From the NCBI GenBank assembly GCA_001800245.1, contig MGVA01000068.1, positions 62,001 to 126,000 on the forward strand: a stretch of 64,000 nucleotides of DNA, written 5' to 3'. Shown here in pieces: positions 53,551 through 64,000 of this stretch. The notes below the pieces were generated by a model. That model was not told the DNA's origin, ran no database searches, and saw nothing but the letters and a program-made list of their open reading frames with translations. Numbering within the stretch: position 1 is the stretch's first letter; each line of letters starts with the position of its first letter. A program made the position numbers and the translations under genes. The stretch comes from Elusimicrobia bacterium RIFOXYA12_FULL_51_18 (GTDB lineage Bacteria; Elusimicrobiota; Elusimicrobia; Elusimicrobiales; UBA9959).

Positions 53551-53968
53551 TGTGGTTTTATTATATATTATCCGCGGACTATAAATGGCGTTTTGGGCGG
53601 CGGCACGTTGTGGCGCAGGAATCTGCCGCGTGCCGGTTCCTATTTATTTAACAACACTTATCCCGGTGGAGAACGTGGGCAACAGTAAAGCCGGAACATT
53701 GAGGCCGGCGCTCGGGTTCAAGATTGGCTATGTTTTTGAAGGATTCTGGACGGCCAAAGAGAAAACGTGATCCTTTAAGCAGTGAAAATCGCAACAAAAC
53801 ACCCACTCCATACGGAAATAGCGTCTTTAAAAAAGACCAAAAAGTCTTATAATCTAACACGCAGCCCGATTTTAAGGCCGTTCCTAAAATATTTTGCCCA
53901 ACCAAAAAATAACCGTCCGCCGACGACAAACCAAAAAAACTCGCCCTATTTTTGCCCTTTCTCTCAAT
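53551..53968 (+). other. Intergenic region without recognisable gene
   Basis: Short frames exist on both strands but show no family resemblance, no ribosome site and no codon bias. Just upstream of the σ54-type promoter lie pyrimidine-rich blocks (CGCCCTATTTTTGCCC) similar to those before the promoter at 61.7 kb. Confidence 0.5.
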
Positions 53969-53985
53969 TTGGCATAAAAATTGAC
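53969..53985 (+). promoter_or_regulatory. σ54-type promoter P1
   Basis: TTGGCATAAAAATTGAC: GG at 53971-53972 and TTGA ten bases on, matching the GG-N10-GC spacing of -24/-12 promoters with A in place of the last C. It lies 75 bases before the ATG at 54059. The 30 bases upstream resemble those of P3. Confidence 0.6.
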
Positions 53986-54058: not shown

Positions 54059-54706
54059 ATGAAAAAGTTAATGATGGCGATAGCGGTAATAGTTAATGCG
54101 GCCTCTGGAGTCAGGGCGGAAGAGTTGAAGATGGATTTCGACAAAGGCTCTTACAGTTCCCAGAAGTTTATGGAGGCGGTCAAGGCGCAGGAGCCCAGTG
54201 TGAGTGGCATCTCTTGGAAGGCCTTCTCGGTGGAGTCCGGAAATGCGGGTGATCCCTCGGACGATTCCGCAATACTGGCGACCATTAACCGTTGCGAAAA
54301 CAAGAAGGTGGACGAAACACTGCGGGATGACTTAAAGAAATTGCTCGTATATGGCACGGCAGAAGAGAAAGCACAGTTCAACACTCCGGAGAAATATGTT
54401 TTTCCGAAAAGGCTGAATACTTTTGTGTCCTTCAGGAGTTTTGATCAACTCTCAGCAAAAGACAAGTCTCTTGGAAATTGTGTAAAATGGGCTTCAAAGG
54501 ACGTTTGTCGTGATAAGGAAATCTGGCAGACTGCCTGTCTAGCCGGGACTGTTTGGTGCTTTACGGCTGCCGGCGGAAGTTGTGGCCCTGCCGGGGCTGT
54601 TTGCACCCTTGTTAACAAAATTGTTTCGGAATGCGTACCTGTGCCGTACTGCGTTGAGTGGGATAGCGAGGCTATTCCCGGCTTCGGAAATCCAGGGGTA
54701 GTCTAG
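54059..54706 (+). CDS. Secreted Cys-rich protein of unknown function
   Basis: 215 residues with a signal peptide (MMAIAVIVNAASGVRA). The first 130 mature residues are polar. The C-terminal 80 hold nine of ten cysteines in WASKDVCRDKE, TACLAGTVWC, GGSCGPAGAVC and SECVPVPYCVEWD, around a Gly/Ala-rich hydrophobic centre. This could be a disulfide-bonded module that meets a membrane. No family is recognised. ACGGAGAAAAAAG precedes the ATG. The shared σ54-type promoter suggests it belongs to the same regulon as the peptide genes at 61.8 kb. Confidence 0.65.
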   Translation: MKKLMMAIAVIVNAASGVRAEELKMDFDKGSYSSQKFMEAVKAQEPSVSGISWKAFSVESGNAGDPSDDSAILATINRCENKKVDETLRDDLKKLLVYGTAEEKAQFNTPEKYVFPKRLNTFVSFRSFDQLSAKDKSLGNCVKWASKDVCRDKEIWQTACLAGTVWCFTAAGGSCGPAGAVCTLVNKIVSECVPVPYCVEWDSEAIPGFGNPGVV

Positions 54707-54714
54707 GACATACT

Positions 54715-54885
54715 ATGAACCTTAAAGAAAAGACTGGCATGAAAATAGGCGGAGTATCTGGAGCTCTTATATCGCTGATATTGATCTATCATGGCAAAAA
54801 AGTGTTTCCAGAGCTGATCAACACGCTGCTCATCGCTTTCGTGCCATGGATAGGCGCCACTCTTGGCGATAAATATTTAAAGTAA
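54715..54885 (+). CDS. Small membrane protein (56 residues)
   Basis: Starts MNLKEKTGMKIGGVSG eight bases after the Cys-rich gene. Two hydrophobic helices (about 13-23 and 34-48) with a short polar turn, ending ATLGDKYLK. The size and layout recall small holin-like or anchor proteins, but nothing identifies it. Probably co-transcribed with the secreted protein and possibly its membrane partner. Confidence 0.5.
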   Translation: MNLKEKTGMKIGGVSGALISLILIYHGKKVFPELINTLLIAFVPWIGATLGDKYLK

Positions 54886-55451: not shown

Positions 55452-56387
55452 GTGATAACTACGGCTAAAACTCTTCTTAGGTTCATAGATCCGGAAACCG
55501 GGCCTATAACAAGAATCACATCGGCTCCTTATCCCAGCTTGTTCAAAAGGAGTTGGTGGCATTCTTCCGCGTTTCTACATAAAAATATCACCGGTGTAAC
55601 TGGGGAGTTTAAGATTTTTAACCAAGGTAGTGGCGGTGCTTGGAGTCCAGATAAAGAGGAAAGCCAGGTAAAAGCCGTTGTGGAGGCTATAGAGAGATGG
55701 TCTTTTTTTTATTACTCTTCCGGACAAAGCGCCGGATTAGATATTGATTCAACCACAAATGGTTTTGCGGCGTTGCCTGATAGTTTCGGAAGCGGGCCTG
55801 TGAAAGCGAACGCTTATTGTGAAGCGTTGGAAAGATGGCTGCTGGACAGAATATGGTACAACGGTGATGTCCTCCTTGTAAATTTCCCCTGGGAGCGCAC
55901 CAAGGCCCCCGCGCTATTCGGCGGGTACGCAGAACGCTTGCGCGTCTATATCACAGAAATGGCGGATATAGAGTTCCCCGATCTTTCCGATAAAAAAGTG
56001 TTTTTTTGTCTTGCCTTGTTGGAAACAGAATGTGGCGGAGTGCTGCCTGGGTCTGCGTGCGGGATGGATGTGAATACTGTGGCGGAACATGCCATTATAG
56101 AACTTTACAACCACTATCTAGTCTTTGGGAAGATAAAGAAACTTAACCCCGCGCGGCTTGACAGCCTCATTGAGGCGCGCCTTTATTATTTTGCTAGTTC
56201 AAAGTCTGCGGGAGAAATGGTTAAAACCAAAATCCAGATTGGAAAAAATTCTGTCCCGAAGATCCCCAAGTTGGCCTTTTCCGCCGCGATAATAGGGCCT
56301 TGGAACCCCGAAGTCAATGTCTACCGCGTCCTTTTGGACGGCACGGTTCCTTTCATGACGGATGGGGTCGAGCGATTTCTGGTTTAA
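55452..56387 (+). CDS. YcaO-like protein
   Basis: 311 residues from a GTG start. The YcaO ATP-binding pattern is visible: GSGGAWSPDKEESQVKAVVE followed by AIERW (Glu78, Glu81, Arg82), then TNGFAALP and KANAYCEALERWLLDRIW (the SNGxAAG and E-L-x-E-R blocks). YcaO enzymes phosphorylate peptide backbone amides to form azolines, amidines or thioamides. This one is short and lacks a C-terminal Pro-rich motif. No separate E1-like partner is present, so its role is uncertain. The next gene begins right after its stop. Confidence 0.78.
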   Translation: MITTAKTLLRFIDPETGPITRITSAPYPSLFKRSWWHSSAFLHKNITGVTGEFKIFNQGSGGAWSPDKEESQVKAVVEAIERWSFFYYSSGQSAGLDIDSTTNGFAALPDSFGSGPVKANAYCEALERWLLDRIWYNGDVLLVNFPWERTKAPALFGGYAERLRVYITEMADIEFPDLSDKKVFFCLALLETECGGVLPGSACGMDVNTVAEHAIIELYNHYLVFGKIKKLNPARLDSLIEARLYYFASSKSAGEMVKTKIQIGKNSVPKIPKLAFSAAIIGPWNPEVNVYRVLLDGTVPFMTDGVERFLV

Positions 56388-57950
56388 ATGTATTACATTG
56401 CCCGCTTTATCTGTTTTCTGTTTATTTGCCCGCTATCATTGTCAGCAGGAGATAACGCTATGAATTCGACCCCGTTCAGGTTCCTATACTGGTATCTTCC
56501 CTCGACCTTCGACACATATAAATCGGACCGCATTGATGTTTTGCCGGTGATCCGGAATATTTATGCTCCGCTGATTACTAGTTTTATGAACAGCAGGACG
56601 GAGGGAATGATCGCGGAATCGTGGAAGGTGGATCCGACAGGGAAAACATGGAGATTTAAAATACGGAAAGGACTAACTTTTGACGATGGGACGCCGATAA
56701 CTGCGGATATCGTGCTAAAGAATTTCAGAAGGATCTTGTGGCTTACACGTAAAGATGCTCTCCCCTTAAACTCGCTTATGCCGGAGGTGCGTGACTGGAA
56801 CAACTATGCTGCGCCACTTAAAAGCATCTACGCGACCGGCGATACGCTTATCTTCAAACTGAATAAACGGGCGGCAGACTTGTGCGAGATATTGGACCAG
56901 GCGATATATAGTATTGCAGATCCAAAATGTTTTGACAAAAACGCCCAATGGAAAGACGATTTCTGTTATTCGGCGTCCGGCGCATATAGGGTAAAAAGTA
57001 TTTCCAAAGAAAAAGTGGTGCTGGAATCGAGGCACGTCTTTCATTCAGTTGAGTACGCCCCTGGGGTGGTGGAAATATATGGCTCACCCGCCAATCGGGA
57101 TTTTATCGGGGCGATAACCGGAAATAGCTGTGACATGACCGTACAAATGAGCAGCAGCCTGGGGAAGGATAAGCTAAAGACGCTTACGTCCGCCGGAGTC
57201 GCCGTCACCGAAGGAATAGCGACTGATATGTATTTCATGGAACTGAATCACAAACACCCTCCATTCAGCGATCCGGCTCTTCGCCGGTCGGTCCGTGACG
57301 TATTCTTTTATATCCTACAAAACGGTTCACAACTGTCGTCGCAGGTGTCGATTGACCATTCGTTTATCCCAAAAGGGGGAATGGGATATGTGAAATTCCA
57401 CGCACCGCGCAGCGTCCGGCCGGTAAAGGGAGCCAAGGGAAAAGTCGTTATTATTTCAACTCCACTACCCGAGAAGATAACAAGCAAAGACCAGGATATC
57501 AAGATACTAGTAGAGGAGGCCCTTACCGAGTCTTTGCGGTTGCATGGCATGACTTCACACATTATCCGATTGTCCGGAAAAGAATGGTATAACCGGAAGG
57601 CAAAAGGAGCCTACGACATTATATATCGTGCGTCAGGCATATCTATTTCAGACCCATTCGTTTCCCTGCGTATGATGTTTATGAGTAAAATCGGCGCGTG
57701 TATTCCTGACCCCTCAGGCAAGATCCCTGAAATCATAAAAGAGGCCGAGGGCACGCGCGGGCCCTCAGACAGGAGGCTTTTGGCGGAAAAAATAAACAAA
57801 ACAATATTTGATGACGCGGCAGTACTGACTTTTATGCATTCAGGGCCAGTCTACCTTCATAATCAAGGCGTGGACCTGTCGCATTTCAATTCGGCCTCCG
57901 ATGTTGTAGAGTTCCGTGCTATTAGCTGGCGGCCGGAAATGGTGAAATAA
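56388..57950 (+). CDS. Oligopeptide-binding protein (SBP family 5) without a permease
   Basis: 520 residues with a signal peptide (FICFLFICPLSLSAG). The SBP_bac_5 fold is visible in GMIAESWKVDPTGKTWRFKI, RKGLTFDDGTPITADIVLKNFRRIL, SASGAYRVKSISKEKVVL and ALRRSVRDVFFYIL. These proteins normally deliver peptides to an ABC importer. None is present; instead the sensor-kinase gene follows 2 bases later. It probably senses a peptide in the periplasm on behalf of that kinase. Confidence 0.88.
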   Translation: MYYIARFICFLFICPLSLSAGDNAMNSTPFRFLYWYLPSTFDTYKSDRIDVLPVIRNIYAPLITSFMNSRTEGMIAESWKVDPTGKTWRFKIRKGLTFDDGTPITADIVLKNFRRILWLTRKDALPLNSLMPEVRDWNNYAAPLKSIYATGDTLIFKLNKRAADLCEILDQAIYSIADPKCFDKNAQWKDDFCYSASGAYRVKSISKEKVVLESRHVFHSVEYAPGVVEIYGSPANRDFIGAITGNSCDMTVQMSSSLGKDKLKTLTSAGVAVTEGIATDMYFMELNHKHPPFSDPALRRSVRDVFFYILQNGSQLSSQVSIDHSFIPKGGMGYVKFHAPRSVRPVKGAKGKVVIISTPLPEKITSKDQDIKILVEEALTESLRLHGMTSHIIRLSGKEWYNRKAKGAYDIIYRASGISISDPFVSLRMMFMSKIGACIPDPSGKIPEIIKEAEGTRGPSDRRLLAEKINKTIFDDAAVLTFMHSGPVYLHNQGVDLSHFNSASDVVEFRAISWRPEMVK

Positions 57951-57952
57951 CA

Positions 57953-60001
57953 ATGCTCTCAAAATGGCGGCTGCTTCAGATATGGTTCCTGGCTGGCGCC
58001 GTTCTGGCCATTATCTTTTCAGCGGCTTTTTTCTGGCTGTGGTCCGCCGCAAAAGAATACGGGGTCTCTTCTCTTGAAAAACAGATTACCACAACTCTTT
58101 CAAATGAACTGGCCGAAGGGAATATATTAAAGCTTGAGGCCGCGTTAGGCAAAAGTCAAAAAGAAGGAATTCTTCAGTTTGCCGAGATCCGGCAGTTTGT
58201 TCGACCGGATTCCTGGGAGACCATTTATAAGACACAGTTTCTCGGTTCGCCGGCCGTAGATCCTTTTACGGGGTTTACCTGCTCGTCCGGCCGGCTTGTA
58301 AAACCACATTTTTGGAGGGGCGTAGGCCTGCTTGTGGTGTTGCCGGGGAACATTTCAGGCGCAGATTGTCTTGCTTTATATATAGATTCAGATCTTCCGC
58401 ATGGCCTTAAAATCTTGCGTAACAGGTTGATATTGTTCGCAATATTCAGCGCCGCTGCACTTGTAGGCTTGTTTTTTATATACATGACCTCCTGGCATAA
58501 AAAGATTGTTCTTCTTGAAACAGAAAATCTGAAAGCTCATATCGACAAGCAAGCGTCCTTGACTGCCTTGGCCGCGCAGGTGGCGCATGACATACGGTCA
58601 CCCTTGTTTGCGCTGGACGCGGCGCTTAAAGATACGGCGGAACTTCCTGAAAAGAAACGTATTATAGTGCGGCATGCGGTTAATCGCATACGCGATGTGG
58701 CGAATGATCTTCTTGAAAAGAACCGGCAACAGACAAAAACCGTACCAGCCGCTGATTCTGCCGGAGAAAAATCCGAAGCGGGTGTGATATTGCAAACCTA
58801 TCTGATCTCAAGCATTGTTGATCCTATTATCACGGAAAAGCGACTGCAATTTGAGTCAAAACCAGGGATCAATATTGATTTTGAATTAACGAGGGAATCT
58901 TACGGCCTGTTCGCTAAAATCCAGCCTGTTGAGTTCCGGCGCATGATTTCTAATCTGGTCAATAACGCCGTTGAGGCTTTGGGCGATAAAGGTGCGGTAA
59001 TTATAAGTTTAGGTCATGAAAACGAAAGCATCATTTTGACAGTATCCGATAATGGCAAAGGCATACTACCCGAAATACTGGCGCGTCTTGGTCAAAAAGG
59101 CGAAACTCACGGTAAAGCCGGAGGATCGGGTCTTGGGTTGTTCCATGCCAGAACTACGGCGGAAAGTTGGGGTGGCAGTCTGACAATTACTTCGGAGCCG
59201 GGCAAGGGCAGCAAAGTCACAATAAAACTACCTAAAGCCGAAGCTCCTGATGAATTTGTGCCGGAATTGATACTTTATCCTGGCAGGCCGGTTGTTGTTC
59301 TGGACGATGACCCGAGTGTCCATCAGATATGGCAGGGCCGGTTTGAGTCCGTCCGTGTTAAAGAACATGATATTGAAGTACTCCATTTCAGTGAGCCGGA
59401 TAAATTGCGGACTTGGGTGAAAGCCAATCAGATAAAAGTCGAAAATGCCGTCTGCCTTTTTGATTATGAACTTTCAGGGTATAAAGAAACCGGATTAAGC
59501 CTGTCCGAAGAGCTTGGGCTCTGCGGTCAAACGATATTGGTCACAAGCCGCTGCGAAGAGGATCGGATAATTGCAGAATGCAGGCGTCTTAAGATACGAA
59601 TGATCCCAAAAGGATTATCCGGTTTTGTGCCTATGACGATAGGTGATAGTAAATCTCTTATTAATCCGCCTGTTTCTGCTTCGTCTTCTAAATGCGTTGT
59701 TCTGGTGGACGATGACGCGCTTACGCATATGACCTGGGAAATGGCCGCACAGGAGCACGGCATTAAATTGCAGGCATATACCGACCCGGCTGAGTTCCTC
59801 TCGCAACTGGGGGATTTTCCCAAAGACACGCCGATATACATAGATTCCGACCTTGGTGAAAATATAAAAGGCGAGGATATTGCCGCAGACCTAAGAAAAA
59901 AAGGTTTCACGAATCTTTGCCTTGCGACCGGACATCCTCCGGAGAAATTCTCCCATTTGCCCTGGCTGAAAGTGATCAGCAAAGAACCGCCGTGGGGCTG
60001 A
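57953..60001 (+). CDS. Hybrid sensor kinase with two C-terminal receiver domains
   Basis: 682 residues. Membrane helices at about 12-33 and 158-178 enclose a 125-residue periplasmic sensor. HisKA has the phosphoacceptor His212 in AAQVAHDIRSPLFAL, then an HATPase with LVNNAVEALGDKG and GGSGLGLFHART. Two receiver-like domains follow: VVVLDDDPSVHQIW with LFDYELSG, and CVVLVDDDALTHMTW with YIDSDLG. Phosphate could pass through these to a separate Hpt/DHp protein and on to the σ54 activator. The adjacent peptide-binding gene supplies the likely input. Confidence 0.9.
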   Translation: MLSKWRLLQIWFLAGAVLAIIFSAAFFWLWSAAKEYGVSSLEKQITTTLSNELAEGNILKLEAALGKSQKEGILQFAEIRQFVRPDSWETIYKTQFLGSPAVDPFTGFTCSSGRLVKPHFWRGVGLLVVLPGNISGADCLALYIDSDLPHGLKILRNRLILFAIFSAAALVGLFFIYMTSWHKKIVLLETENLKAHIDKQASLTALAAQVAHDIRSPLFALDAALKDTAELPEKKRIIVRHAVNRIRDVANDLLEKNRQQTKTVPAADSAGEKSEAGVILQTYLISSIVDPIITEKRLQFESKPGINIDFELTRESYGLFAKIQPVEFRRMISNLVNNAVEALGDKGAVIISLGHENESIILTVSDNGKGILPEILARLGQKGETHGKAGGSGLGLFHARTTAESWGGSLTITSEPGKGSKVTIKLPKAEAPDEFVPELILYPGRPVVVLDDDPSVHQIWQGRFESVRVKEHDIEVLHFSEPDKLRTWVKANQIKVENAVCLFDYELSGYKETGLSLSEELGLCGQTILVTSRCEEDRIIAECRRLKIRMIPKGLSGFVPMTIGDSKSLINPPVSASSSKCVVLVDDDALTHMTWEMAAQEHGIKLQAYTDPAEFLSQLGDFPKDTPIYIDSDLGENIKGEDIAADLRKKGFTNLCLATGHPPEKFSHLPWLKVISKEPPWG

Positions 60002-60184
60002 TTATGATTTCGGTTTTGCTTCCAACTCCGTCAGAAGCATAATAATATCCTGCGCCGCTTCGCGCATAAGCCTGATCACTTTATCCTTTTTTTCCGGAGG
60101 GCATTTTTCCAGGAGTTCCACCGCGCTTTTAAGGCCTATGGTTTTTGATTTAAGGTTGTGATATATTTTTTCATTATCGGCCAT
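60002..60184 (-). CDS. 60-residue stand-alone DHp-like protein
   Basis: Starts at the ATG at 60184, two bases after the stop of the σ54 activator gene whose last codons carry its GGAGAGG site. IYHNLKSKTIGLKSAVELLE matches the H-box helix of a HisKA/DHp domain (His8), and KKDKVIRLMREAAQDIIMLL the second helix, together one DHp hairpin with no ATPase domain. A dimer could form a four-helix bundle that passes phosphate from the receiver-bearing kinase to the activator's receiver. This function is inferred. Confidence 0.72.
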   Translation of the reverse strand: MADNEKIYHNLKSKTIGLKSAVELLEKCPPEKKDKVIRLMREAAQDIIMLLTELEAKPKS

Positions 60185-60186
60185 GA

Positions 60187-61533
60187 TTATTTCCTCTCCG
60201 TTGTTTTCAACTTCGCCAGCACGGAATACAGAAGACATTTAGAGATCTTAAGCTGGGTAAGCGTGGCGGCTTTTTTGCCGTGGTTCTCGCTTAGATTGCG
60301 GTTAATGATCCCCGCGGTAAAACGGTCCGCGGCGGCGGCAAGGCCGTGTTTAACCGCATAATCGTACTGCTCCTGTGTAACAGCCGCTGCGCCTGTCTGC
60401 TCCGGCGCGACGCATGGCGTAATGTGCCGTTGCACAGTGTCCAGCGTCACCGATCCCTGTGTGCCGGCCGCTATTAATTCCACAAAGCGCTTTAGTTCAC
60501 GGGTGTTGCCGGGCCAGTTGTGCGCCAGCAGATGTTCCCTTGCCTCCGGCTCGAACGCAAGCCGCTTCTTTCCCTTTGTAAAAGCCTGCATTAGTGGGAA
60601 GATATCGCATTTCCTCTGTGCCAGGGGTTTTAGTGCTATCGTCATGCCGTGCACGCGCTGGAAGAAATCAAAGCGCAACTTTCCCTCGGCCAGCAGTTTC
60701 TGCACGTCCTCAAGAGTGGCGCTTATTACGCGGAAGTCGGAATACTCCGGCTTGTCCGCCCCAAGTGGGTAGAACGCCTTTTCCTCAATGGCCTTAAGCA
60801 GCTTCACCTGCATATTCTGGCTCATGGCACCTATTTCATCGAGGAACAGCGTGCCCTTGTCCGCCTGCGCCAGTTTGCCTTTGCGGTTTTCATGCGCGCC
60901 GGTGAATGACCCTCTTTTATATCCAAACAACTCTGATTCCAAAAGGTCCTCAGTATAAGCCGCACAATTTATCGACACAAAGTCGCCGTCCCGGCCGGAA
61001 TGCCCGTGCAATAGCTGCGCGAGGGTGGTCTTGCCGGTGCCGGAAGGGCCAAGGAGCATCAGCGGCAGCTCCATAGCCGCGTATTTAAGAGCCTCGGACA
61101 CCAACGAGCGGGTTTCGGGGTCGTTGGTTATAAAAACTTCGGAGAAAACTTCTTGCGCTTCTTTGCCGCCGTCGCCGCGCAGATACCGGGCTATGATGGC
61201 CGCTATGTTATGGTCCTCGTTGCCCTTCACATAAAACTCTTTACAGCCAAGCGCGTAAGCCCGGCCAATGGTTTCTTCCGTATCACAACTAGACATTACC
61301 ACGGAGTAAATATTCCTTGAAACCGCCAAAGGGATAAGCTTCAGCCCGGAATAATCGTCATTCTCACCGAGCAGCAGGTCCATAAAGCAGATATCATAAT
61401 GCCCGGCCTTAAGTTTGCGTTCGGCCGTAGCTTTATCCCCGGCAAACTCCACCGCATGGCCCGCCAGGTTTTCCGACATAACCTCGCGTGCCAGCGCGTC
61501 GTCTTCAACCACAAGAATATTTAGTTTACCCAT
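60187..61533 (-). CDS. σ54-dependent response regulator (NtrC family)
   Basis: 448 residues from the ATG at 61533; the longer frame to 61728 adds non-homologous residues. Receiver with VVEDDALAREVM and phosphoacceptor Asp52. AAA+ domain: Walker A LGPSGTGKTT (161-170), GSFTGA (208-213, Ser in place of the first Ala of GAFTGA), Walker B LFLDEIGAM. The end has a Fis-like helix-turn-helix (NHGKKAATLTQLKISKCLLY). It is divergent from the precursor-peptide promoter P3 and is the obvious activator of it. The DHp-like gene follows in the same operon. Confidence 0.93.
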   Translation of the reverse strand: MGKLNILVVEDDALAREVMSENLAGHAVEFAGDKATAERKLKAGHYDICFMDLLLGENDDYSGLKLIPLAVSRNIYSVVMSSCDTEETIGRAYALGCKEFYVKGNEDHNIAAIIARYLRGDGGKEAQEVFSEVFITNDPETRSLVSEALKYAAMELPLMLLGPSGTGKTTLAQLLHGHSGRDGDFVSINCAAYTEDLLESELFGYKRGSFTGAHENRKGKLAQADKGTLFLDEIGAMSQNMQVKLLKAIEEKAFYPLGADKPEYSDFRVISATLEDVQKLLAEGKLRFDFFQRVHGMTIALKPLAQRKCDIFPLMQAFTKGKKRLAFEPEAREHLLAHNWPGNTRELKRFVELIAAGTQGSVTLDTVQRHITPCVAPEQTGAAAVTQEQYDYAVKHGLAAAADRFTAGIINRNLSENHGKKAATLTQLKISKCLLYSVLAKLKTTERK

Positions 61534-61738
61534 TAAAGCCCCCAACTTGCCGCCGTCTGATATCCAATATTGTAGCAAACCCAGGCCATATCGTCTTATA
61601 AAAGTACCATAGGGATCTAAAATAGTACGCATTACGAGTCTTTTACAAGATAAAACAAGCCGCGCTAATTCCAGGCTAAAGAGTATTCTCCGACGATAAA
61701 ACAAGGAATATGCGCCCATTTCGGCCATTTTCCGGATT

Positions 61739-61756
61739 TCGGCATAATAATTGCTC
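61739..61756 (+). promoter_or_regulatory. σ54-type promoter P3 of the peptide operon
   Basis: TCGGCATAATAATTGCTC: GG at 61741-61742 and GC at 61753-61754, exact GG-N10-GC spacing. It lies 41 bases before the first precursor ATG and 200 bases from the divergent σ54 activator gene. Upstream repeats of CCCATTT/CCATTTT/GGATTT may bind the activator. Confidence 0.75.
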
Positions 61757-61794
61757 TATACAAGAGTGTAGACTAAAAACGGATAGGAGGAAAA

Positions 61795-61899
61795 ATGGAA
61801 TTGTTTAAAATCGAAGTCGAGAAAGTTGAAGCACAAACGCGCGGCTGCGGCTGTGTATGCGTGCCTGGAGTTGGTGGTGGCGCCGGGGAAAATAAATAA
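61795..61899 (+). CDS. Precursor peptide 1 (34 residues)
   Basis: Starts MELFKIEVEKVEAQ and continues TRGCGCVCVPGVGGGAGENK. A leader of about 15 residues is followed by a core with CxCxC and a GGGAG stretch. TAGGAGG lies 5 bases before the ATG. It has a paralogue immediately downstream and a radical SAM maturase after that, so it is very probably a ribosomally made, modified peptide. Below the size limit of most gene finders. Confidence 0.85.
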   Translation: MELFKIEVEKVEAQTRGCGCVCVPGVGGGAGENK

Positions 61900-61916
61900 T
61901 AGTAAGGAGAATTCTA

Positions 61917-62024
61917 ATGAGGGAACTGTTTAAAATAGAAGTTGAAGTTCTTAACGAAACCACAACGCGTGCATGTCAATGCCTCTGCTCTGGTTTGGGT
62001 GGTGGAGCCGGCGGGGAAAAATAA
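61917..62024 (+). CDS. Precursor peptide 2 (35 residues)
   Basis: Starts MRELFKIEVEVLNETT and continues TRACQCLCSGLGGGAGGEK. It shares ELFKIEVE, TR, CxCxC and GGGAG with peptide 1, while the residues between cysteines differ (GCV against QCL). AAGGAGA precedes the start. The conserved leader and variable core positions are typical of a RiPP precursor family. Confidence 0.85.
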   Translation: MRELFKIEVEVLNETTTRACQCLCSGLGGGAGGEK

Positions 62025-62037
62025 AAAAGAAGAAAAA

Positions 62038-62065
62038 GACAGGGCGGCATTCCCGCCGCCCTGTC
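62038..62065 (+). terminator. Hairpin between precursors and maturase
   Basis: GACAGGGCGGC (62038-62048) pairs perfectly with GCCGCCCTGTC (62055-62065) over a 6-base loop. There is no T tract on this strand, so it may partly terminate or protect the short precursor mRNA and lower maturase expression. The Shine-Dalgarno of the maturase follows at 62073. Confidence 0.6.
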
Positions 62066-62086
62066 ATAAATCCAGGAGACTTTAAT

Positions 62087-63388
62087 ATGAAATTGTTTTT
62101 TGATAAAAATATTATAACCCTTAAAGAGCCCGATAATAATTTTATAATCTATAGCCCACTGATACACAAAAGGGTTAGGATAAGTAAAGCTGTTTTTATA
62201 ATAATAAATGATGTCCTTAACAATGACGGCGATGTCAATTTAAGCAAGATAAAAGAAACTATCTCAAAAGAGTTTAAAACAGCGGCTTCGGACGAGGATA
62301 TCCTATCGCAGATAAGGTATTTGGAAAAATTAAAGTTTCTGTTTAAGAAGGATACGGATAAAAACGAACTCAGCGGAACGGTTAACGACAAGATAGTAGA
62401 GGATATACAGCTGGCGGATCTGTCGACCGCCTATATGCATTTAACGATGAGGTGTAATTTTAATTGCTCGTATTGTTATAACAGGGATTGGCATAAAAAC
62501 TTCAGAGATGAACTAAAAACGGATGATTGGGCAAAAGTCGCGGACAAATTAAGCAAAACCACTATCAAACACATCAATGTCACGGGAGGGGAAGCGCTGG
62601 TCAGGAAAGATGCGGGAGTAATAATAAAAAAGTTGGCGGAATTAAAATTCAGGGTCTCGCTGCTTACGAATGGGAGTCTGTTGGGGGAAAGATATAAGGA
62701 AGTCCTCCCCTATGTGAACTCCATCGTTTTAAGCCTGGACAGTGAAAATGAGCATAGCAATGAATTAAATCGAAGCGCCATCGGATTTCAAAACATACTT
62801 CAGGTCATCAGAAAGATCACGAAAGAATTCCCCGATAAACTGGTGGTAAGAAGCGTTATCACCGCTAGCAATATAGATGAAGTTAAGGAGTTCCATGATA
62901 AATTGAAAAATGAGTATGGCGTGAAAAACACGATAAAAACCATGCTTATCCCCAATCGGATAGAGGACATTGCACAAGTTCCCGAGTTGGAAAAGATAAA
63001 GACCCTCAACGATACCGAGATCGGCGAAAGCAATGTGTATTATCGTTGTTCTGCGGGAAAGAAGATCATTGCGTTAAGCCCGTCGGGGGACATTTTTCCG
63101 TGTCAAAGCCTGATGCATGAAGAGTTTAAAATGGCGAACATCTTTGACGGAGACTGGCAGGAAAAAGTAAAAAGAAGTTCGACCGCGCTTATGCCTAAGC
63201 TTTTGGCTGAAAAGAAGGGATGCACGGATTGCCAATATAAGCATTTTTGCGGAGGCGGCTGTCCTGCAATAGGCTATAGGCTGCACGGGAATTTTGATCA
63301 TCAGCCGGATTTCCTTTGCCCTCATTTAAAAGAGCAGGCCAAGTGCAGATTGGAGAATGTGCAATCCACATGGGAGACCATCAACTGA
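62087..63388 (+). CDS. Radical SAM/SPASM peptide maturase with RRE-like N-terminus
   Basis: 433 residues from the ATG at 62087 (AGGAG upstream); a longer frame from 61973 overlaps precursor 2. Residues about 1-90 resemble a PqqD-type precursor-binding domain. The radical SAM cluster is CNFNCSYC (Cys123, 127, 130), with VTGGEALVRKD following. The SPASM region has YRCSAGKK, FPCQSL, CTDCQYKHFCGGGCPA and DFLCPHL, giving ligands for auxiliary clusters. Homologues make sactipeptide, ranthipeptide or similar crosslinks. The two upstream peptides are its likely substrates. The bond type is not predictable here. Confidence 0.92.
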   Translation: MKLFFDKNIITLKEPDNNFIIYSPLIHKRVRISKAVFIIINDVLNNDGDVNLSKIKETISKEFKTAASDEDILSQIRYLEKLKFLFKKDTDKNELSGTVNDKIVEDIQLADLSTAYMHLTMRCNFNCSYCYNRDWHKNFRDELKTDDWAKVADKLSKTTIKHINVTGGEALVRKDAGVIIKKLAELKFRVSLLTNGSLLGERYKEVLPYVNSIVLSLDSENEHSNELNRSAIGFQNILQVIRKITKEFPDKLVVRSVITASNIDEVKEFHDKLKNEYGVKNTIKTMLIPNRIEDIAQVPELEKIKTLNDTEIGESNVYYRCSAGKKIIALSPSGDIFPCQSLMHEEFKMANIFDGDWQEKVKRSSTALMPKLLAEKKGCTDCQYKHFCGGGCPAIGYRLHGNFDHQPDFLCPHLKEQAKCRLENVQSTWETIN

Positions 63389-63452
63389 GCGGCCGGCAAG
63401 CTGCTTTAAGTAGCAATTGCTGGAGCCGCAGATTCACGATCGAGGAGAACTT

Positions 63453-64000
63453 ATGAAAATAACCGGATTCGCTCGGAAATACACGGGATATATATGCCTT
63501 ATATTTGGTTTCGTCCTGTTAAAGGCTATCTTCACGTTTATAGCGCCCGTTATTATAAAAAAGATTCTGGACCAAATATCTTCCGGTTCCATAAATCCCG
63601 ACGGAATCCAAACATATTTTATCCTGTTCGCGGTAACGTTCTTCCTGTTATACGCGGTCAATTTTATATTGAGTTACTTCAATCTTAAATTTTCCTTTGT
63701 CTTCAAGGTAAATGAGCTGGAGAACCTGTATCAAAAGCTGATGCGGATAAGATACGCAGATTATTACAAGAACGGCACGGCATATTACGTAAATCGGATC
63801 ACGGTTTTTGTATATGATCTCTTTTCGCTGCTTTCAAATACATTATCCTATGCTTTCATTTCCATATTGACCATCCTGATCTCGTTTTATTTTATTTACA
63901 AAATAAACATCGGTATTTTATGGATCTCCTTTATCCTTCTGCCGCTAAATTATTTCGGTTTTAAACTCATAAACAAGAGCCTCTTAAAGAAAAGCCAGAA
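63453..64000 (+). CDS. ABC transporter, membrane domain, cut by the window end
   Basis: The first 182 codons of a protein starting MKITGFARKYTGYICLIFGF, with GAGGAG upstream. Hydrophobic helices at about 12-32, 55-75 and 128-165, with IKKILDQISSG and RIRYADYYKNGTAYYVNRIT as the coupling segments of ABC type-1 exporters. No ATPase part is in the window. Position after the maturase points to export of the modified peptides, perhaps with leader removal if a peptidase is encoded further on. Confidence 0.85.
   Translation, partial: MKITGFARKYTGYICLIFGFVLLKAIFTFIAPVIIKKILDQISSGSINPDGIQTYFILFAVTFFLLYAVNFILSYFNLKFSFVFKVNELENLYQKLMRIRYADYYKNGTAYYVNRITVFVYDLFSLLSNTLSYAFISILTILISFYFIYKINIGILWISFILLPLNYFGFKLINKSLLKKSQ

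Follow-up and report, generated by a model that had tools for sequence, protein, structure and literature searches.

The right end of the window, the 64 kb of DNA analyzed here (bases 62001–126000 of contig C68 in a 2.75 Mb draft genome, probably that of an elusimicrobium), carries a cassette of four genes behind a sigma-54 promoter. These encode two short precursor peptides, a radical SAM/SPASM maturase, and an ABC exporter. From its sequence, the best interpretation of the locus is a new orphan RiPP cassette, most likely a sactipeptide-like one. The cassette is taken as four genes because the exporter is followed by a phosphosugar mutase gene of the housekeeping type (glmM by eye); neither a leader protease nor an immunity gene occurs within it. 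A first-pass annotation had described a two-precursor radical SAM peptide locus under sigma-54 control, and the gene set, domains, and promoter all agree with that description. It had also called such control unusual. This holds against the published systems that we found, but within this bacterial family the arrangement is the common one, and what is of interest is therefore the sigma-54 regulon rather than the single locus, which alone is of moderate interest.

Precursor peptides

Precursor peptide 1 (34 amino acids, MELFKIEVEKVEAQTRGCGCVCVPGVGGGAGENK) is encoded at 61795–61899 and its paralogue, peptide 2 (35 amino acids, MRELFKIEVEVLNETTTRACQCLCSGLGGGAGGEK), at 61917–62024, both on the plus strand and both preceded by Shine-Dalgarno sequences. 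Both have the leader ELFKIEVE, and in both the CxCxC core is succeeded by GGGAG. In pairwise alignment they are 67% identical, with the three cysteines and GGGAG invariant. The 33 aligned codons comprise 12 that are identical, 10 with synonymous changes, and 11 with replacements, and synonymous codons thus preserve 10 of the 22 residues common to both peptides. This pattern indicates that the frames are under coding constraint and that the two ORFs are truly coding, which bears out the paralogous pair picked out in the first-pass annotation.

The core layout is the same in both peptides: CxCxC, then P/S-G-x-GGGAG. Cysteine donors lie in the first half and small residues, the potential acceptors, in the second, as is characteristic of sactipeptides. 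The cores contain no aromatic residue and almost no Asp or Glu, with one acidic residue near the C-terminus in each. A profile search with the two peptides over 295 genomes of the phylum returned the peptides themselves and otherwise chance matches, with no convincing homologue. Neither peptide passes the cut-off of any curated precursor model.

Maturase and exporter

The maturase (62087–63388, plus strand; 433 amino acids from an ATG start at 62087) is assigned as a radical SAM/SPASM RiPP enzyme from its PF04055 match (E 1.3e-21), its cysteines, and its fold. It has the CxxxCxxC motif and, by alignment, every invariant cysteine of the SPASM domain, despite a weak SPASM match (E 0.014). In its AlphaFold model (mean pLDDT 72.6), the N-terminus has a PqqD-like order of strands and three helices (local pLDDT 55–79). 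The best whole-chain fold matches of the model are the RRE-bearing maturases CteB, SuiB, TigE, and SkfB, with CteB (5wgg) nearest (E 4.6e-20). The PqqD-like N-terminus noted earlier thus finds support in the model but not in Pfam, whose PqqD family has no match in the maturase, and we predict an RRE domain here with modest confidence.

A profile of 24 related enzymes, many of them SCIFF maturases and so favoring CteB, likewise placed CteB first (E 5e-128), then SkfB, with SuiB and TigE also near. A single-sequence search also ranked CteB and SkfB first. Identity to characterized enzymes is about 20–28%, and the NCBIfam models yield numerous weak hits from a wide range of chemistries (ScmE, CbpB, mycofactocin, PapB, and SCIFF). 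None of the curated maturase models passes its cut-off: scores against the sactipeptide models are 80 bits for StsB (cut-off 625), 64 for SkfB (300), and 58 for AlbA (850), and those against the ranthipeptide models, for a system with three cysteines only, are 86 for TIGR03974 (425) and 87 for NF047865 (340). Radical SAM RiPP enzymes vary widely in chemistry, and in view of this and of the low identity, a thioether product can be predicted only weakly.

Close relatives of the maturase are absent from the 295 phylum genomes and from the GTDB scan. At E 1e-20, only three other genomes of the 295 have matches. The nearest (L019) is 27% identical, and its locus has two tandem 34-amino acid peptides with Cys/Gly-rich C-terminal cores (MANDFEVYSGDVEPNSSCTGSCLCGGTNCGGSGG) and no sigma-54 site; the other two (L020 and L021) belong to a different RiPP type. 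Scanning GTDB genomes with the single maturase sequence yielded nothing. A scan with a two-sequence alignment yielded 80 loci, mostly of clostridial SCIFF maturases, near which no similar peptides were seen. Viral contigs had one radical SAM locus, which is unrelated, and plasmids had distant radical SAM genes only.

Between precursor 2 and the maturase gene lies a perfect 11-bp hairpin (62038–62065, plus strand; −25.5 kcal/mol, z −5.5 versus shuffles), a candidate attenuator or processing site that would favor precursor over enzyme. The ABC exporter begins at 63453 on the plus strand and runs past the end of the window at 64000 to about 65159. The full gene encodes 568 amino acids with a transmembrane and a nucleotide-binding domain (PF00664 and PF00005), in keeping with the exporter originally called, and it has no C39 peptidase domain. 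Its closest counterpart, at 35% identity, is in a sigma-54-controlled Cys-peptide/radical SAM cluster (L255), whose precursors (CSVCAECTEC...AAGSAGLIITHNF) resemble classical sactipeptides. In L255 (3771–4346), three near-identical tandem precursor copies, one interrupted by N, stand before one radical SAM gene.

Promoter and adjacent regulator

The promoter CGGCATAATAATTGCT (61740–61755, plus strand; extended match CTATACAAGAGTGTAG to about 61772) is the sole perfect match to YGGCAYN5TTGCW in the window (0.39 expected), with GG and GC dinucleotides ten bases apart in a −24/−12 context. Taken by itself, such a lone match would argue weakly for a promoter; backed by comparison, the case becomes strong. 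The same extended sequence occurs at the same place in loci of orthologues of RR1, the AAA+ activator encoded beside the promoter, and it also recurs genome-wide. The correctly spaced −24/−12 promoter claimed ahead of the peptides is thereby strongly supported. The genome also encodes one PF04552 protein (sigma-54, on contig C55). In the cassette promoter, the first base (C instead of T) and some inner bases depart from the family consensus.

The response regulator RR1 (60187–61533, minus strand) is divergent from the cassette. It has a receiver (PF00072) and a sigma-54 AAA+ domain (PF00158, 184 bits) with a GSFTGA loop; Pfam calls no HTH in it, and its C-terminus looks Fis-like by eye. An extended −10-like element, TGCTACAAT (61569–61577, minus strand), is conserved, with ATTGTAGCA invariant in five loci, and is the probable promoter of RR1. 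Convergent with RR1 is a membrane histidine kinase with a receiver-like C-terminal part (57953–60001, plus strand; PF02518), and this convergent pair is maintained in relatives. A 78-amino acid ORF without a Pfam match (60002–60238, minus strand) lies between the two and overlaps the end of RR1.

The kinase belongs to an operon whose first gene encodes a YcaO-domain protein (55452–56387, plus strand; PF02624, 30 bits) and whose second encodes a periplasmic oligopeptide-type solute-binding protein (56388–57950, plus strand; PF00496, 96 bits). This order is conserved in five loci (the window, L111, L112, L113, and L114). In L112–L114, the three-gene unit occurs without a nearby cassette of the CxCxC-GGGAG type, and in L111 it lies beside a quite different precursor. 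Action of YcaO on the CxCxC peptides was considered and set aside, since its gene belongs to the kinase operon, and this three-gene unit is also found where no such peptides are encoded. A YcaO gene within a sensor operon lacking a peptide partner, as in the window (55452–60001) and in L111–L114, is odd.

A box, CTCCGACG (61688–61695, plus strand), lies 52 bp upstream of the −24 element, a position conserved in relatives. It is present at −52/−53 also in L165, L111, and L166 (one mismatch) and at a second site in the window, 53970 (one mismatch), and is not found at this position in other sigma-54 sites. This box is a candidate site for binding by RR1, the NtrC-type regulator encoded next to it. 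Inverted repeats near RR1 (GTCTTATAAAAG) were also considered as binding sites and rejected, CTCCGACG instead being the box at a fixed distance.

RR1 has orthologues of 73–85% identity in seven genomes. Four of the seven (G225, G087, G145, and G209) have a sigma-54 site 179–220 bp upstream of the orthologue, and similarity among these upstream regions extends beyond the promoter. The genes behind it vary. In G225 they are two Cys-rich precursors (76 and 65 amino acids) with radical SAM and M50-like genes, and G087 has a relative of that cluster; in G145 the site leads into a secreted protein, and in G209 into a 692-amino acid response-regulator protein. At L111 and L165, the orthologue is divergent from a different cluster of Cys-rich precursor, radical SAM, and M50-like genes. 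The three other orthologue loci (L167–L169) have neither the sigma-54 site nor a cassette. The regulator is thus kept while its target is exchanged.

The second site in the window, TGGCATAAAAATTGAC (53970–53985, plus strand), is weaker, and its box is CGCCGACG (53918–53925). It precedes a secreted Cys-rich protein (54059–54706) and then a 56-amino acid membrane ORF (54715–54885), which could be a bacteriocin/immunity pair. Relatives followed by a small membrane ORF lie at sigma-54 sites in G145 and G208 as well.

A sigma-54 regulon in the family

We searched for an extended promoter signature of 21 nt (TGGCATAAAAATTGCTCTGTA), with the reversed pattern as control. The source genome has 8 sites at two mismatches; a looser form of the pattern, allowing three mismatches, gives 12, and the control gives 0. 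Four of its sites (C55 31384, 37212, and 42913, and the cassette locus) have a same-strand radical SAM gene within 2.5 kb, as compared with 0.03 such neighbors expected per site from the 71 radical SAM genes (P about 2e-4, taking ten sites). The extended pattern has 137 matches in 59 family genomes, 36 of which are positive. The reversed pattern has no match in the 295 phylum genomes, and in the whole-phylum scan 28 of the 29 positive genomes belong to the same family as the source. Within the 59 family genomes, sites are present in 35 of the 46 that have sigma-54 and in 1 of the 13 that do not (p 1.2e-5; the sites are related by descent, and Fisher p values overstate their independence).

Of 100 first ORFs, 94 start no more than 100 nt from the site. 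A radical SAM or LanKC gene lies within 5 kb of 36 of the 97 sites with enough flanking sequence, versus 8 of 467 control segments, although related genomes are not independent; most of the 97 have no radical SAM gene nearby. By a crude classifier, about 60 of the 97 lead into proteins whose starts resemble signal peptides, many with a DFDG motif after the signal. At least five sites lead into the sigma-54 gene itself.

Three class III lanthipeptide clusters (L267, L270, and L282), each with LanKC, tandem precursors, and an ABC transporter, are under the same sigma-54 promoter. LanKC scores 735–738 bits in the two clusters scanned (cut-off 575), and class III precursors are also above cut-off, which independently confirms that true RiPPs lie under this promoter. 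One of the three clusters is from the genus of the source genome. Precursor repeats were also seen: three near-identical tandem precursor genes, each with its own sigma-54 promoter, at L274 317–1300, and a 55-amino acid precursor with a threefold repeat (FTSGFNRAPELE) between a sigma-54 site and a radical SAM gene at about 8602 (minus strand) of L279.

The sigma-54 of the source genome is unusually short (351 amino acids; L170 8681–9733, on C55), and Pfam recognizes only its DNA-binding domain. Its gene carries the same type of promoter and is divergent, in the source and in many other genomes, from RR2, a paralogue of RR1 (about 58% identical). Some family genomes have two to four sigma-54 copies, some of these with stop codons in the search frame. 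The sites fall into two groups. Those linked to RR1, the window sites at 61740 and 53970 included, have CTCCGACG, or one mismatch to it, 52–53 bp upstream. A perfect palindrome, TCAAATGAAAATATTTTCATTTGA, matches at 42 of 106 sites, mostly 70–120 bp upstream, versus 3 of 1060 shuffled regions. We infer that the CTCCGACG box is read by RR1 and the palindrome by RR2. The cassette, which neighbors a kinase/NtrC-type pair, belongs to the sub-regulon that the CTCCGACG box marks.

Comparison with known systems

The cassette resembles sactipeptide systems (subtilosin A/AlbA, SKF/SkfB, ruminococcin C, and streptosactin/GggB) in having a radical SAM/SPASM maturase, a short precursor in which Cys donors precede the acceptors, and ABC export. 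A CxC donor pair is described for RumC2 and a Gly acceptor for streptosactin (PMC8172795); for streptosactin GggA/GggB, the likeness is drawn from the published description only (PMC8172795). Unlike these systems, the cassette has no sequence family match and no peptidase, and it has CxCxC spacing, a GGGAG tail, a dedicated two-component pair, and sigma-54 control. The earlier statement that the peptides fit no class therefore stands insofar as no curated precursor or maturase model passes, but they are laid out like sactipeptides, among which CxC donors and a Gly acceptor have each been described (PMC8172795). The SCIFF/CteB ranthipeptide system provides the closest solved structure, both by the SCIFF-rich profile and by fold, yet the cassette peptides have three cysteines rather than six and no SCIFF core, and TIGR03974 stays far below its cut-off. 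The class III lanthipeptide loci of the family share tandem short precursors and the same kind of promoter with the cassette, but differ in enzyme and chemistry and are related to it as regulon members only.

In Myxococcus xanthus, sigma-54 and its enhancer-binding proteins control polyketide and non-ribosomal peptide genes (PMC7910581), and there too an NtrC-type activator and −24/−12 promoters drive natural product genes (PMC7910581). In contrast, the promoters in that organism are mostly intragenic, whereas here they lie just before the first gene, and the targets here are RiPPs and secreted proteins under a short sigma-54. Sigma-54 has been linked more generally to the cell exterior (PMC3162934). 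A search of 5.4 million open-access papers turned up no description of a sigma-54 regulon centered on RiPPs.

Proposed mechanism and alternatives

We consider it likely that the cassette is driven by RR1 and sigma-54 and makes an exported, sactipeptide-like product. The kinase would sense a signal, perhaps via the periplasmic peptide-binding protein, and phosphorylate the divergent RR1. Bound near CTCCGACG, about 52 bp upstream, RR1 would drive sigma-54 polymerase at 61740–61755, and the hairpin after precursor 2 would cause the precursors to be made in excess over the enzyme. The PqqD-like domain of the maturase would bind the ELFKIEVE leaders, and its Fe-S clusters would join the CxCxC sulfurs to residues of the Gly-rich second half, giving a nested thioether hairpin that the ABC protein would export. 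The cassette is one of at least eight sigma-54 targets in the genome, several others of which are peptide-modification loci. The thioether prediction draws on the nearest relatives of the enzyme, the order of Cys before Gly, and the absence of aromatic residues from the cores, which also argues against cyclophane or Trp/Tyr crosslinks. There is perhaps an even chance that the crosslinks are sulfur to α-carbon bonds.

The same cassette might instead carry out other chemistry, such as epimerization or β/γ (ranthipeptide) links to Asp or Glu, or its cysteines might stay free and bind a metal, e.g., copper. We regard this as possible though rather doubtful: the best NCBIfam scores are scattered and all far below cut-off, and CxCxC is by itself a good metal ligand set, but the complete SPASM set and the CteB/SkfB-like fold favor oxidative crosslinking. 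Asp/Glu links, which PapB-type enzymes make (PMC9413430), are unlikely given the scarcity of acidic residues in the cores. The product might be a signal rather than a secreted antimicrobial, with the solute-binding protein and kinase encoded alongside sensing the peptide in an autoinducing circuit. The pairing of a peptide-type binding protein and a kinase in an operon adjoining the cassette and the existence of two precursor variants are consistent with this, but it appears unlikely, as the sensor is not matched to the peptide, the conserved three-gene unit occurring elsewhere with no such cassette or with a different precursor.

Least probable of all, and very improbable in our view, is an incidental link in which the motif marks genomic islands or is itself a repeat hitch-hiking with peptide clusters. 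Several sites do cluster on contig C55, and tandem copies accompany the precursor in some genomes (L274). Against this, the reversed pattern is never matched, nearly all first ORFs (94%) start within 100 nt of the site, the sites co-occur with the sigma-54 gene, sites on many contigs also precede that gene and secreted proteins, and two separate boxes lie upstream at fixed distances.

A wider proposal, for and against which we see about equal odds, builds on regulation by sigma-54. In this one family, the short sigma-54 may have become a controller devoted to ribosomal peptides that act as weapons or signals, with two activators using separate boxes to switch interchangeable precursor/maturase cassettes of several RiPP classes; the CxCxC-GGGAG cassette would be a member specific to its species, and its crosslink chemistry would be new. 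One promoter signature of 21 nt picks out short RiPP precursors from several classes, many of them without a family model, in a poorly studied family. It also points to a likely biological role for sigma-54 in the lineage and offers a ready means to prioritize precursor/maturase pairs lacking annotation for expression. Thanks to the two-box arrangement, it can be tested directly which signals trigger the peptides.
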